This document shows positions 22,544 to 28,866 of a DNA stretch of 64,000 bases, piece by piece. The stretch lies in NCBI GenBank assembly GCA_016861345.1, contig BOLD01000003.1, positions 1-64,000 on the forward strand, read 5' to 3'. The translations under genes and the position numbers were made by a program. The notes beneath the pieces are model-generated. The model did not search any database, had not been told where the DNA came from, and saw only the letters and a list, made by a program, of their open reading frames with translations. Every line of letters begins with the position of its first letter. The first letter of the stretch is position 1. Source of the DNA: Oligoflexia bacterium. Lineage in GTDB: Bacteria; Bdellovibrionota; Bdellovibrionia; Bdellovibrionales; Bdellovibrionaceae.

Positions 22544-22966
22544 TTAACTTTTGGCAATTCCGATGTCGCGACCGAACTGTTCAAGCTTTTGCGTTATCTC
22601 ATCTCGCGCTGACCTAAATGCGTCGGGCTTTTGCTCCTCAGTCGCGTTCGCCGGGTCTCTGATTGGCCAGTGAAGTCGTTTTGCCTTTGATGGTAGAACC
22701 GGACAAACTTCCTCCGCGCAAAGCGTGATTACAAAATCAAGTTGTTCGACAAACTCATGAGAAAGTTGATCTATTGATTTAGACCAATTCTGACTAATAT
22801 CAATTCCCGACTCGCTTAATACCTTTACGGCCCACGGTTGCACTTTTCCTGAAGGCACAGATCCAGCGCTTTCGATATTTGCTTTAGTTCCGAAAAGTTT
22901 CTTTGCGATACCTTCTGCTAACTGACTGCGTGCCGAATTTGCTACGCATAAAAATAGGATATTCAT
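22544..22966 (-). CDS. arsC: arsenate reductase, low-molecular-weight phosphatase type
   Basis: 140 residues. The P-loop C7-x5-R13 (CVANSAR) and the two later cysteines C83 and C88 (TLCAEEVCP) are the triple-cysteine relay of thioredoxin-coupled ArsC, which reduces arsenate to arsenite. The DP pair (RDPANAT near 110) supplies the general acid. It lies one base after the acr3 stop in an arsenic-resistance operon and acts upstream of the exporter: arsenate is reduced, then arsenite is exported. Confidence 0.95.
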
Positions 22967-22967
22967 C

Positions 22968-24026
22968 TTATGCCCCTTTTAAAAAATATTTTTTACGAAT
23001 CCAAAGCGATGCCGAGACTAATCCTATAAGAGCGGGCACCTCAACCAATGGACCGATAACTGCGGCGAATGCCGCTCCGTGATGAATCCCAAAAGTGGCA
23101 ACAGCCACAGCAATAGCTAGCTCAAAATTGTTAGAAGCTGCTGTAAACGATAAAGTAGCTGATTTTTCATAGTCCGCACCAGCTTTTCGGCTCATAAAAA
23201 ATGAAAACAGAAACATTAAAATGAAATACAGAAGTAATGGAATCGCGATACGAACTACATCCAGTGGCAATTCGATAATGCGATCACCTTTAAGAGCAAA
23301 CATCACGATGATCGTGAACAACAAAAAAACAAGAGTGAGCGGAGAAACTCTAGACATAAACTCAGTTTCAAACCATTTTGTGCCTTTGTTCTTAATCAAA
23401 ATTTTTCGAGTTAAAAATCCCGCAATGAATGGAATTCCTAGATAAATGAATACGGCGATGGCCACATCCCAAATTGTAATCTTCAATTCGACGCTTGCGA
23501 TCCCCAGCCACCCAGTCGCTGTTTTCAGAAAGAAATAAGCGAGAAAGGGAAAGGTAAAAATTTGGAACAGTGAATTTAAAGCGACTAGTCCCGCGCAGTA
23601 TTCTCGGCTACCACCCGCAAGGTCGTTCCAGACGATAACCATCGCAATACAACGAGCAAGACCGATCAAGATTAGACCTGTCATGTATTCGGGGTAATCT
23701 CTTAAAAAAGTGACGGCCAAAATAAACATCAGAATCGGCCCCAACAGCCAGTTTTGAACTAGCGAAAGAATCAAAACTTTTGTGTTCGATAAGACCTTAG
23801 GAAGCTCTTCGTATTTTACCTTGGCTAAAGGTGGATACATCATTAAAATTAACCCAATTGCGATTGGGATTGACGTAGTTCCGACCGACATTTTTTCAAT
23901 GACAACCGGGATTCTAGGTATAAACCGACCAAGTAAAATTCCAACAGTCATTGCCGCAAAAATCCAAAATGTTAAATACCGATCTAAAAACGAAAGTTTG
24001 CTCATAACAGAGCTACTATGTGCCAT
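22968..24026 (-). CDS. arsB: ACR3 family arsenite efflux transporter
   Basis: 352 residues with ten hydrophobic helices. Family features include GRFIPRIP, the polar intramembrane residues around [22 protein letters not shown], and [18 protein letters not shown], which carries the conserved Cys of ACR3 transporters, and [19 protein letters not shown]. It exports arsenite using the proton gradient. An alternative start is Met8. Divergent from arsR across an operator-like repeat region and followed by arsC. Confidence 0.95.
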
Positions 24027-24042
24027 TCATATCCTCACTTGC

Positions 24043-24069
24043 TTATCGTATTATTACGATATACGATAA
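24043..24069. promoter_or_regulatory. ArsR operator-like repeats
   Basis: Three half-sites in the 47-base arsB-arsR spacer: TTATCGTA at 24043-24050, and its reverse complement TACGATA(A) at 24055-24061 and again at 24062-24069. The outer pair forms an 8-bp inverted repeat and the first two form a 7-bp inverted repeat with a 4-base gap. A repressor binding here would control both divergent transcripts. The last half-site ends four bases before the arsR ATG, so arsR mRNA may be leaderless. Confidence 0.65.
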
Positions 24070-24073
24070 TTGA

Positions 24074-24409
24074 ATGGCAATATCAAGAAAAGAAGAATTT
24101 CCTGACAACGACCTTAAGTTAGCCGACTGGTGTAAAGCGCTGTCGCATCCAGCTCGTATTGCAATTTTGAGAACATTAGCGGATCGCGGTGAATGTATTT
24201 GTGGAGATCTTGTTTTAGATTTGCCGCTAGCGCAATCAACGGTAAGCCAGCACTTAAAAGCACTAAAAGAAGCAAAACTGATTAAGGGTGAAATAGACGG
24301 ACCTAGATCAAAATATTGCATTGATAAAAAAAATTTCGAAAAGTTTTTGAAATCCGTCGGCGACTTTGGAATCAAGACTTCGAATAAGATTAAAGAGCAA
24401 GACTGCTAA
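24074..24409 (+). CDS. arsR: ArsR/SmtB family repressor
   Basis: 111 residues. A winged-helix core with recognition helix about 54-66 ([13 protein letters not shown]), preceded by the metalloid-binding motif ECICGD with C41 and C43, as in arsenite-sensing ArsR proteins. Arsenite binding should release it from the operator just upstream, which lies between it and the divergent acr3-arsC genes. No Shine-Dalgarno sequence is visible before the ATG. Confidence 0.93.
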
Positions 24410-25104: not shown

Positions 25105-25542
25105 ATGAACTCTGAACTTAAAGAAAAACTGACTCAGCTAGCTTTCAATCGCTCGATTTCATTTTGCTACAACTGCTATCACGAATGCCCATCCGGTCGT
25201 TGTGAAACTTGCGGCTCTGATGATCTTATGCGCTCCGTGGATGGAGTTGGCTGCGAGTACGGTACAGATTGGGTTATCAAGCACATTCTTGAAACTAACC
25301 TAACACCTGTCGATCTTGAAGAATCCTTCGAGAACATGATTCGTGAATGCTATCCAGAAACAACGAAAGTGGGATGGTTGGAGTTCGACACAGTTACACT
25401 CATGAAAAAAAACGATCCGATGGCTTGGAATTGTGCCGTTGTTGAGCACGAATCTAACGAAGAAGCCAATGGTGTTATCGTCTCATTCGATGGAGGCTCG
25501 ACATATTTTCGCACTGAAGAAGTCGAAGGGCTGTGCTCATAG
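25105..25542 (+). CDS. small zinc-ribbon protein
   Basis: 145 residues from the ATG at 25105 (GGGAGAT upstream). An N-terminal cysteine cluster, CYNCYHECPSGRCETCG (residues about 17-33), has three CxxC/CxxxC-like pairs and looks like a zinc ribbon. The rest is acidic with no motif I recognise; a C-terminal SFDGGSTYFR segment is beta-like. Small Cys-rich proteins of this size are common on conjugative elements, and another occurs here at 53.2 kb. Function unknown. Confidence 0.6.
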   Translation: MNSELKEKLTQLAFNRSISFCYNCYHECPSGRCETCGSDDLMRSVDGVGCEYGTDWVIKHILETNLTPVDLEESFENMIRECYPETTKVGWLEFDTVTLMKKNDPMAWNCAVVEHESNEEANGVIVSFDGGSTYFRTEEVEGLCS

Positions 25543-25699
25543 ATCATGTTACAAATTGTATCTCAATGGCCCTCTTGTCGGGCGGCTATTGGGGCTGGCT
25601 TCTCCCTAATGCTAAATTTCTGTCGTATTGACTAAATGAGTCTATAGTCTTCTGGGTGACGCCAAGATCCGAAAGGGTTAAAATCAACTCAAATTCAAC

Positions 25700-25778
25700 A
25701 AGGGTTTTGCCTTCGATTGCGAAGGACAAAAGTGAGTCGAATGGTAGGGTCGCCATTTATTTTAAAAATGGTGCTCCT
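25700..25778 (+). promoter_or_regulatory. candidate structured RNA leader of nhaA
   Basis: The leader holds a perfect 6-bp hairpin (CCTTCG-ATTG-CGAAGG, 25710-25725) and, 16 bases later, the motif TGGTAGGGTCGCCATTT (25742-25758), 20 bases before the ATG. The same 17-nt motif, also 3' of a hairpin and at nearly the same distance from a start codon, occurs on the minus strand at 27194-27210. Two independent copies in front of two genes point to a cis-acting RNA. Known nhaA leaders include cation-sensing riboswitches; membership in one of those classes is unproven. Confidence 0.6.
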
Positions 25779-26978
25779 ATGTCGAAAAGAAAAATACGCC
25801 CATACAATTTGGTTCCTCAAAGTATTCGCGCATCTTTACAGCGGTTTATCGCAACAGAATCTGCGTCAGGAGTTGTTCTCGCTATTTGCACTGTTTTAGC
25901 GATGGCGATTGCAAACAGCAGGTTCTTTGCTTCATACACAGAGCTTCTTGAATTCAAAGTCCTTGGCCTGACAATTCATCATTGGATCAATGACGGATTG
26001 ATGACGATTTTTTTCTTCGTCGTCGGTATGGAGATAAAAAGAGAAATTGTCGCGGGAGAGCTCAGTACGTTAAGAAAAGCCGCGCTACCGATTGCTGCGG
26101 CCCTAGGCGGAATGATCGTTCCCGCAGTGATCTATTTGTTTTTTAATCGTGGTTCCGATGTGGCAAATGGTTGGGCCGTTCCAATGGCAACCGACATTGC
26201 CTTTGCCCTAGGAGTGCTAACTTTATTCGGTTCACGTGTTCCATTAGCTCTCAAAATTTTTTTGCTAGCATTAGCAATCGTCGATGATCTTGGTGCGGTC
26301 GTCATTATCGCGTTCTTTTACACAGAAGAGATTCGAATTTTCGGACTAGCTGTCCTTGCGACGGCTGTTGGGATGACCTTTTTGGCAAAACACTTTGGCC
26401 TCAGATCCTATTTCATCTATTTGGTTCTGGGTGTTGTTGCCTGGGCTGGGACTTTGTACTCTGGGGTTCATGCGACTGTAGCAGGGGTTCTGTTAGGGTT
26501 AATGACTCCGTACTTAATTCCTGCTGACTCCAAATCTCTGAATAGCTACTCGCCATTAGATGATTTGATTCACAAGCTTCATCCGTGGGTAGGTTTCGGA
26601 ATCATGCCCATTTTTGCTCTTGCAAATGCGGGTATCTCTCTCCATGGCGCAGACTTCGGAAAAATTGCGATTGATCCGATCTTTTCGGGTGTTTGGATGG
26701 GCTTGCTGTTTGGAAAACCAATTGGCATTTTACTTTTTTCTTTTTTCGCTACAGCTTTGGGACTCGCAACTTTACCGGACGGTTTGCTCTGGAGGCAGGT
26801 GGTTGGAGTTTCACTTCTCGCTGGAATCGGATTCACGATGGCCCTTTTTATTTCCGGACTCTCGTTGGACCCACAACATGCCGTTTACGCAAAAACAGGA
26901 ATCTTGGCTGGTTCGCTGATCTCTGGCGTAATTGGATTTATTTGGCTAAATTTTGCGATCCGAAAGCATTCGATCTGA
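25779..26978 (+). CDS. nhaA: Na+/H+ antiporter NhaA
   Basis: 399 residues from the ATG at 25779; a longer frame upstream runs through the structured leader and is rejected. About twelve transmembrane helices. NhaA hallmarks: GLMTIFFFVVGMEIKRE, the unwound-helix sequence MATDIAFALGV, and LALAIVDDLGAVVIIAFFY with the paired aspartates (DD) that bind Na+ and H+. C-terminal GIGFTMALFISGL is also conserved. It exchanges Na+ (or Li+) for protons at the inner membrane. It lies just upstream of a fluoride-resistance operon; Na+/H+ antiporters have been reported under fluoride riboswitches in other bacteria, but no crcB-type core is visible in this leader. Confidence 0.96.
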   Translation: MSKRKIRPYNLVPQSIRASLQRFIATESASGVVLAICTVLAMAIANSRFFASYTELLEFKVLGLTIHHWINDGLMTIFFFVVGMEIKREIVAGELSTLRKAALPIAAALGGMIVPAVIYLFFNRGSDVANGWAVPMATDIAFALGVLTLFGSRVPLALKIFLLALAIVDDLGAVVIIAFFYTEEIRIFGLAVLATAVGMTFLAKHFGLRSYFIYLVLGVVAWAGTLYSGVHATVAGVLLGLMTPYLIPADSKSLNSYSPLDDLIHKLHPWVGFGIMPIFALANAGISLHGADFGKIAIDPIFSGVWMGLLFGKPIGILLFSFFATALGLATLPDGLLWRQVVGVSLLAGIGFTMALFISGLSLDPQHAVYAKTGILAGSLISGVIGFIWLNFAIRKHSI

Positions 26979-27024
26979 ATACTTTCGTGCAAAATGAAAC
27001 TACTTAGCTGGAAGGTAGGAAAAA

Positions 27025-27174
27025 TTATTTCAATTTGTCCTCAATCGGCTTTCCATTTTTAGGTTCCTTTTTTCCGTAGTTCTTTTCCCAGAAAATGATG
27101 CTGGCGATGATGATCGCAGTGGGAATGAGAAAATAGACTATTTCGACGAGTTTGGCAGTGAAAGCAGACGACAT
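27025..27174 (-). CDS. 49-residue single-pass membrane protein
   Basis: A short gene found by reading the minus strand: ATG at 27174, TAA at 27025-27027. Residues 9-29 are a hydrophobic helix (VEIVYFLIPTAIIIASIIFW), followed by a Lys/Glu-rich cytosolic tail (EKNYGKKEPKNGK). The coding potential is supported by its upstream leader, which shares the hairpin and exact 17-nt motif found before nhaA, with the same spacing to the start and both proteins starting ATGTCG. It converges with nhaA, 46 bases apart. It may be a small partner or regulator of a transporter; function unknown. Confidence 0.6.
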   Translation of the reverse strand: MSSAFTAKLVEIVYFLIPTAIIIASIIFWEKNYGKKEPKNGKPIEDKLK

Positions 27175-27260
27175 GATGGCCCGATAATTGGAAAAATGGC
27201 GACCCTACCACTTGAAAACTCCCATTCACCGAAGGCGAATGAAACCCCTTTTTTCGACTT
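27175..27260 (-). promoter_or_regulatory. second copy of the candidate structured leader
   Basis: On the minus strand, the hairpin CATTC...GAATG with a GCCTTCGGT-type loop (27223-27241) is followed 12 bases later by TGGTAGGGTCGCCATTT (27194-27210), then 20 bases to the ATG of the 49-residue gene. A G-run plus TTT precedes the hairpin in both copies. Hairpin sequences differ while the flanking motif is identical, which is the pattern of a conserved RNA and not of a simple recent duplication. Confidence 0.6.
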
Positions 27261-27502
27261 AACTCTTATTATGAGTTTGTATTCAAAAATTGTCGCTACA
27301 AGTTTTGAAGTATGATCGACAAAAACGCTCAACGGACTCACGGAGCAACTGGCGGATTAAAAAACGTTACGGAAAGACCAAAGTGCTGAAAGAAAGATTA
27401 GAAACCCTGTTGCTCTATTGAAGGCCTCTGGATTTGGCACATGCCATGTCATTGTAAGAATCCCATTTACATTTAAGCGAAAATAGATACAATCTGATGC
27501 AA

Positions 27503-27582
27503 GGCAATGGAGTCTGCCTTAACCGCCGCTCGCAATGAGGTCGTGCTGATGGCTCCTACCAACACAAAGGTAGGAGTGCGCC
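27503..27582 (+). promoter_or_regulatory. fluoride (crcB-type) riboswitch
   Basis: The aptamer core is readable: GGCAATGG...GCCTTAACCGCC (27503-27526) and the near-invariant GTGCTGATGGCTCCTACC (27543-27560). The 3' part CTCCTACC (27553-27560) is perfectly complementary to GGTAGGAG (27569-27576), which contains the RBS of the exporter gene. Aptamer folding with fluoride would hold CTCCTACC and free the RBS; without fluoride the 8-bp hairpin would hide it. This is a translation-control arrangement inferred from the sequence. The downstream gene is a fluoride exporter, as expected. Confidence 0.92.
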
Positions 27583-28866
27583 TTGAGATCTAAATTTAAA
27601 AATCTGTTTTATCGATATTTGAAATGGACCTTTCTTAGCTGTCTCAGTGGTCTGTTAGCTGGTATTGCAGCCGCTATTTTTCTCATCTCCCTTGAATGGG
27701 CGACAAACACAAGAGACCGTAACGCCATCATTATTTTGGCACTTCCTATTGCTGGATTTCTAGTGGGATGGATTTATCACCGCTGGGGTAAAGACGTTGG
27801 CCGAGGTCATAATTTAATCCTCGATGAAATTCACGACCCCAAGAATATTGTTCCGATTCGCATGGCTCCGCTAGTTCTAGGCGGAACCCTTCTGACACAT
27901 TTATTTGGCGGATCCGCAGGACGTGAAGGAACGGCTGTCCAAATGGGCGCTTCACTATCCGATCAGCTAAGCCGATTTTTTAAGATCGAAATTGATGAAA
28001 GAAAAATTCTTTTGGCCGCTGGAGCCGGTGCGGGATTCGGAGCCGCTATAGGGACTCCGTGGGCTGGGGTTATTTTCGGGATGGAAGTGATCAATGTTGG
28101 TCGCTTACGGCTGTTTGCTTGGTTTGAGTGCTTAGTTGCATCATTCGTTGGATATTACACCGTGGTGCTTTTGAGAGCTCCGCACTCTCACTTTCCTGAA
28201 TATGTTTCTGATCGCTTTAGTTTTAGGGCTCTATTCTGGGTCGCGATCGCTGGTATCAGTTTTGGTCTGGCCGCGAAGCTTTTTTCTATGCTGACTCATT
28301 TCATCGAAAGAATGAACGCAAAGTTCATTTCTTATCCCCCTCTGAAGCCATTTTTCGGGGGACTCTTCATGGTTGGCCTGTTTTATTTAGAAGCTTCCTA
28401 TCGCTATGTCGGACTTGGAATTCCATTTATCAATGAAGCCTTAAGCACGCCGGACTCGTTCCGAGACCCGATTCTTAAGATGTTTTTCACCGCCTTAACT
28501 GTCGGCTCAGGCTTTAAAGGCGGAGAGTTTGTTCCACTTGTTTTTATTGGAACAACACTTGGAAGTGCACTTTCAATTCTTATTCCGATTTCTTTCCAGT
28601 TACTTGCGAGTGTGGGATTTGCTGCCGTCTTCGCTGGGGCATCCAATACCCCAGTCGCTTGCAGCATTATGGCAATAGAAATATTCGGAGCACCCATCGC
28701 TCCTTACGCTATCGTAGCCTGTTTCGTTAGCTACTATTGCTCTGGTCACCATGGGATTTACAAATCTCAAAGAGTCTATATCAAAAAACATAAAGAACTT
28801 TTGGCGAAGCTTCTCTGGCTGGGTGAGCTACCAAAGAGATTTCTCAACGGGAATGGAGAGAAGTGA
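27583..28866 (+). CDS. CLC-F type fluoride/proton antiporter
   Basis: 427 residues from a TTG start six bases after GGTAGGAG. A CLC fold with about ten transmembrane helices. Motifs fit the fluoride-specific branch: GRGHNLILDEIH in place of the chloride-channel GSGIP loop, GREGTAVQMG (residues 113-122) with Thr in place of Pro and Met121, GFKGGEFVP near 306 and GASNTPVACSIMAIE near 352. CLC-F proteins expel F- in exchange for H+. The upstream fluoride riboswitch agrees with this. First gene of an operon reaching to 32833. Confidence 0.94.
   Translation: MRSKFKNLFYRYLKWTFLSCLSGLLAGIAAAIFLISLEWATNTRDRNAIIILALPIAGFLVGWIYHRWGKDVGRGHNLILDEIHDPKNIVPIRMAPLVLGGTLLTHLFGGSAGREGTAVQMGASLSDQLSRFFKIEIDERKILLAAGAGAGFGAAIGTPWAGVIFGMEVINVGRLRLFAWFECLVASFVGYYTVVLLRAPHSHFPEYVSDRFSFRALFWVAIAGISFGLAAKLFSMLTHFIERMNAKFISYPPLKPFFGGLFMVGLFYLEASYRYVGLGIPFINEALSTPDSFRDPILKMFFTALTVGSGFKGGEFVPLVFIGTTLGSALSILIPISFQLLASVGFAAVFAGASNTPVACSIMAIEIFGAPIAPYAIVACFVSYYCSGHHGIYKSQRVYIKKHKELLAKLLWLGELPKRFLNGNGEK

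Follow-up and report, generated by a model that had tools for sequence, protein, structure and literature searches.

A candidate cation-responsive leader RNA ahead of nhaA in Bdellovibrionota, related to the nhaA-I riboswitch

A repeated 17-mer within a conserved two-hairpin RNA

Why should one stretch of 17 nucleotides stand, in opposite directions, before both nhaA and a gene for a 49-aa membrane protein in a Bdellovibrionaceae genome? In the window, which is the whole 64,000-nucleotide stretch of contig BOLD01000003.1 analyzed here, TGGTAGGGTCGCCATTT has exact matches at 25742-25758 (+) and 27194-27210 (-) (n = 2), and the same two sites are its only exact copies in the 2.76-Mb assembly. 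These counts agree with an earlier note on this DNA, which had reported two opposed copies, each behind a hairpin of different sequence, as is seen at both sites. The note had also placed each copy 20 bases before a start codon; this holds for nhaA (ATG at 25779, +), but the gap to the ATG of the 49-aa protein (27174, -) is 19 bases. By our own estimate, about 0.2 repeated 17-mer pairs are expected in 64 kb, and a single such repeat is by itself not improbable and proves little. Its significance comes from recurrence in relatives, first as exact copies ahead of start codons in five further genomes and then in 61 covarying members, and within the same family and order many genomes have an exact or near copy ahead of a start codon. 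The only additional window match at up to three mismatches (14809) lies in coding DNA and is an unrelated chance match, as are several two-mismatch matches in relatives that fall in coding DNA or at a tRNA end (L021).

The 17-mer is the 3' part of an RNA of about 55 nt with two hairpins, P1 and P2, and forms most of P2, which the earlier note had missed. Copy A, an aptamer-like RNA 5' of nhaA with covariation support (25702..25759, +; 45.1 bits and E of 6e-9 with covariance model R1, 45.6 bits with R2), consists of GGGU (25702-25705), P1 (25706-25730), AGU (25731-25733), and P2 (25739-25758; GAAUGGU-AGGGUC-GCCAUUU, with the AGGGUC loop at 25746-25751), all on the plus strand. Copy B (27193..27247, -; 50.1 bits and E of 3e-10 with R1, 50.1 bits with R2) is likewise aptamer-like, with a UUCG-type loop on P1 and AAGUGGU-AGGGUC-GCCAUUU as P2, and it lies 5' of the gene for the 49-aa small membrane protein (27025..27174, -; called from its translation). 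That gene is convergent with nhaA (25779..26978, +), whose 399-aa product is a Na+/H+ antiporter by PF06965 (E of 1.8e-138) and TIGR00773 (above cut-off).

Model R1 was built from a seed of 18 sequences with hand-trimmed P1 tips, since MAFFT misplaces P1 on full sequences, and R2 was built from a natural-sequence alignment of the members found with R1; the later alignments A4 and A6 also consist of untrimmed natural sequences. Weak R1 or R2 matches inside coding sequence, including L119, L120, L122, and L212, were excluded. At E ≤ 0.3, R1 matched 43 of 141 genomes of the window's order, and about 35 of the places were convincing. R2 matched 41 of 369 genomes of the phylum, which belong to the window's order or are of Bacteriovoracaceae type; the family's own members score 28 to 62 bits in R2. 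Among the matches listed when the GTDB collection was scanned with a pattern were Bdellovibrio, Bdellovibrionaceae, Pseudobdellovibrionaceae, Bacteriovoracaceae, and Bacteriovorax, together with at least three Opitutales-type records of Verrucomicrobiota at 48 to 52 bits and the Verrucomicrobiota genome LW23 at 33 bits; one more Verrucomicrobiota genome carries the motif beyond these records. The motif was found in 1 of 297 sampled Desulfobacterota genomes and in 0 of 349 sampled Proteobacteria genomes, the latter set holding no positive control. Closely spaced or tandem copies occur at L249 (5652-5705 and 5994-6042) and L255 (8246 and 8999).

Alignment A6 holds 61 members, most of them from Bdellovibrionota and a few from Verrucomicrobiota, and gives the consensus GGGU-P1-AGU-P2, with a linker of about 5 nt before a P2 of about 7 bp written GGU[AGGGUC]GCC. 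GGGU and the AG of AGU are invariant (61/61 each), the U of AGU is present in 58 of 61, and the P2 loop is AGGGUC in 59 members and AGGGGC in 2, so that AGGG[U/G]C covers all 61. Across the 12 pairs of the P1 and P2 helices, 94.8% of cells are paired and 11 pairs show double-sided changes, with a covariation score of 0.79; shuffles score 0.27, and slid partners reach no more than 0.18. Because A6 was fitted to the model, it is biased toward the model's structure, but the seed alignment and A4 give the same picture, and these two helices are also what RNAalifold predicts from A4. The structured RNA that the earlier note had suggested is thus borne out by strong covariation in homologs. The two members with an AGGU core, L117 (3111-3167, before nhaA) and L121 (5674-5732, before Mrp genes), are also the two with the AGGGGC loop, a correlated change in sequence that suggests contact between the P1-flank and P2-loop positions.

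Genes downstream of the RNA

A recognized Na+ transporter is the first or second downstream gene in 24 of the 61 members. The first gene encodes the tiny membrane protein in 19 members, DapB in 8, a PF07399 antiporter in 7, a GCS2 ligase in 4, and NhaA in 2; single cases are a Na+-dependent nucleoside transporter (CNT), a Na+:alanine symporter (AGCS), and a PHO4-like gene ahead of a Na+/Ca2+ exchanger, and the remaining first genes have unknown or other products. In about half of the members the RNA stands before a gene whose product has no known function, most often the tiny protein. Counting first and second genes together, PF07399 is found in 11 members (second in L096, L105, L118, and L098), and two of these proteins also match DUF1646, an overlap with the genes of the Na+-I riboswitch; some PF07399 assignments (e.g., those at L257, L253, L255, and L259, as well as the second genes at L118 and L098) are by plain similarity to Pfam-tested proteins. 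In L115, GCS2 has a CPA2 gene behind it. Mrp subunits come after the RNA in two members, L121 and L142, the latter from Verrucomicrobia; one of the two is Verrucomicrobia LW23.

NhaA is first or second in seven members. Within the window's family, five of seven NhaA genes carry the RNA, placed either immediately 5' of nhaA or ahead of the tiny gene in front of it, and the RNA was absent from 11 other NhaA leaders of the order. The 49-aa protein matched no Pfam or NCBIfam family above cut-off. Its homolog lies directly 5' of a Pfam-confirmed nhaA in an apparent operon in five relatives (L123, L102, L107, L108, and L109), and it is possibly a partner or regulator of NhaA. Its relatives are single-helix membrane proteins of 33 to 70 aa with the pattern K-L..L..hhhP..hF...FF.hE.kRKK, often encoded just before nhaA.

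Other genes recur as well. dapB is repeatedly under the RNA (L097, L099, L110, L113, L256, and L258), as is the glutamate-cysteine ligase-like GCS2 (L111, L115, L116, and L118); neither is an obvious Na+ gene, and both count against a Na+ reading. Membrane proteins of about 400 aa are found under the RNA at L103 (4820-6019) and L105 (5535-6746, beside the PF07399 antiporter); neither reached the cut-off of any Pfam family, that of L105 having no match at all, and it is possible that they form a new antiporter family.

Kinship with Li+-I and Na+-II and the likely ligand

The earlier note had proposed a search with the nhaA-I, nhaA-II, and DUF1646 models, and this search, run as part of the whole Rfam 15 library, gave no match to the motif: only rRNA and fluoride families reached cut-off on the window, and the motif itself drew no nhaA-type (including nhaA-II/Li+-II), sodium, or otherwise relevant family. 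At E ≤ 10, the nhaA-I model (RF03057; gathering cut-off of 37 bits) did not match either window copy or five further member loci, the Sodium models did not match the motif, and the Na+-I model (DUF1646, RF03071; gathering cut-off of 40.5 bits) did not match the window copies in either whole-genome or local searches; in the genomes of 100 relatives from Bdellovibrionota, nhaA-I had no match at cut-off. In the reverse direction, R2 weakly detected 17 two-hairpin places among Desulfobacterota nhaA-I RNAs at 13 to 29 bits (best E of 2e-4), some of which are one place present in two loci, and the AGU/AGGGUC family and nhaA-I are therefore related. They share the 5' GGGU, P1, AG after P1, the linker, a P2 of about 7 bp with a 6-nt xGGGxC loop closed by GGU/GCC, and nhaA downstream. 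The Rfam nhaA-I consensus, GGGU-P1-AGGU-linker-GGU[CGGGCC]GCC, and 25 Desulfobacterota nhaA-I matches, nearly all with CGGGCC and AGG(U/A), differ in the core, since AGU and AGGGUC replace AGG(U/A) and CGGGCC as a block; CGGGCC occurs in 0 of 61 members and AGGU only in the two noted above. The family also differs in lacking a GC-rich conserved P1 base, in its wider set of Na+ genes, and in its host phylum, Bdellovibrionota. A terminator-like GCGGC-T run is present in many of the Desulfobacterota matches, and several of the matches are in tandem; tandem or closely spaced copies of RNAs of the nhaA-I/Na+-II type are seen at L276, L269, and L273.

We consider it quite probable that both window copies represent one cis-regulatory family of riboswitches that turn translation on in response to an alkali-metal cation, Na+ being the likeliest, and that would add a third core variant to the superfamily of Li+-I and Na+-II. 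The RNA is a covarying structured leader ahead of functionally related genes, which is the general mark of a riboswitch, and we infer that it would bind an ion, whose identity is suggested by the genes. A cation-sensing RNA, as the earlier note had thought plausible, would fit both the mostly Na+-related recognized genes and the nhaA-I/Li+-I sequence architecture; the note had left room for a known class or a new one, and the motif has the superfamily architecture with a differing core and no Rfam match. If the RNA is a cation riboswitch, the gene associations make Na+ a moderately likely ligand, favored because of the range of Na+ genes and especially the Na+-coupled symporters and the Mrp genes in another phylum, and Li+ a doubtful second. 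A further-reaching reading, to which we would give an even chance, makes AGU/AGGGUC RNAs a separate natural class of Na+ riboswitch whose own ion specificity sets it apart from both Li+-I and Na+-II. In that reading they would serve predatory Bdellovibrionota as the main Na+ sensor, with control over antiporters, symporters coupled to Na+, and a new small membrane protein associated with NhaA.

Of the competing explanations, a diverged but functionally ordinary Li+-I riboswitch, with Li+ as ligand and neutral core changes, is unlikely but the most serious. The common two-hairpin architecture and the nhaA association speak for it, as does the closing U of the P2 GGU, which is U in 60 of 61 members as in Li+-I and which, by a mapping that we infer, corresponds to the discriminating position 54, where PMC9646797 gives C as the marker of Na+-II. 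Against it stand the block replacement in the core, the silence of the Rfam nhaA-I model on the motif, and genes far beyond nhaA, including Na+-coupled symporters, Mrp, and a Na+/Ca2+ exchanger; other gene associations of Li+ riboswitches are described in that paper as rare.

That the RNA is simply the published Na+-II riboswitch in another lineage is improbable. The Deltaproteobacteria once included Bdellovibrio. It is in this reading's favor that Na+-II is a rare Li+-I variant reported only from Deltaproteobacteria (PMC9646797); it is described there with intrinsic terminators and genes of unknown function, and its sodium response was shown experimentally. Both RNAs are core variants of Li+-I, with sodium in our case suggested by gene context, and Na+-II is the nearest precedent for a change of ion specificity in the Li+-I scaffold. 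However, the family has predicted start-codon sequestration and Na+ transporter genes rather than terminators and genes of unknown function; no terminator accompanies the window copies, and a terminator-like site sought in 25500-27600 was not found. Furthermore, the Desulfobacterota nhaA-I matches with terminator-like tails all carry CGGGCC, whereas the motif has AGGGUC. Judged by the description of Na+-II in PMC9646797, the AGU/AGGGUC core letters likely differ from those of that riboswitch, and the motif, which is absent from Rfam, is probably a core variant set apart from it.

Na+-I resembles the family in having two hairpins with a conserved P1 base and P2 loop and in an ON logic in which P2 competes with the expression platform (PMC9337991), but its consensus is GG-UUG..CAA-GAuuUuu with a bulge in P1.

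Predicted control of the start site

In copy A, the P2 loop and 3' arm (UAGGGUCGCCAUUU) can pair with AAAUGG..CCUA to form a predicted OFF hairpin (25745..25779, +; z of −2.86, P = 0.005 versus shuffled spacers) that spans the ribosome-binding region as well as the A of the nhaA AUG and is mutually exclusive with P2. This alternative start-site pairing is available in copy A and most Bdellovibrionales members, with a mean z of −1.8 versus shuffled spacers across 40 leaders. Computed without ligand, the OFF state of copy A lies 11.8 kcal/mol below its P2 state, and the OFF state is favored by 6 to 13 kcal/mol in 12 of 13 leaders computed, copy B being the exception; no sequestering hairpin was found in copy B or seen in several Bacteriovoracaceae members. 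The folding model predicts that copy A and most Bdellovibrionales members act as translational ON switches, because, where the OFF hairpin excludes P2 and is favored without ligand, a ligand linking the base of P1 with the loop of P2 would turn translation on. As long as the ion is absent, the loop and 3' arm of P2 would hold the ribosome-binding site and start codon in a pairing that keeps translation off; the ion would bridge the invariant P1 base (GGGU/AGU) and the invariant P2 loop (AGGGUC), and the stabilized P2 would free the start site, so that genes for Na+ export or use would be made when cellular Na+ is high. The direction of switching is probably ON in such a model; in Li+-I, according to PMC9646797, the ligand activates expression, probably by ribosome access.

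A hairpin sequestering the Shine-Dalgarno region could also make the leader an RNA thermometer or a target of a protein or other trans factor, and such a hairpin does exist; this reading is still more improbable than identity with Na+-II, since a thermometer has no need of an unpaired core kept invariant across two hairpins with freely varying stems, the gene set points to ions, and known ion riboswitches have the same layout. A mobile repeat or chance duplication, for which two near copies within 1.5 kb might speak, can be dismissed, given a genome with only two copies, their unrelated flanks and P1, and about 40 other genomes with the motif before start codons and with compensatory changes.

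Telling Na+ from Li+ and K+ is a difficult chemical task for an RNA, and the known natural variants are few. A third core whose block changes fall exactly where the ion is thought to bind, together with a correlated AGGU/AGGGGC intermediate, would allow a direct test, through exchange of two short segments, of how sequence sets the choice of ion. The Bdellovibrio group is studied for its predation on Gram-negative bacteria, and it would gain a cation-responsive regulation that current Rfam annotation misses; the finding also points to an unrecognized small protein that travels with NhaA.

The surroundings of nhaA hold further ion-related features. A fluoride riboswitch (RF01734, 47.9 bits) at 27494-27565 (+) lies directly 5' of a ClC-type gene (PF00654, 27583-28866), which is likely a fluoride exporter, and an arsenic-type cluster recognized by eye rather than by profile (ArsC-like, Acr3-like, and ArsR-like) lies upstream of nhaA at 22544-24409. 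The region from 22.5 to 29 kb looks like an ion-resistance island.
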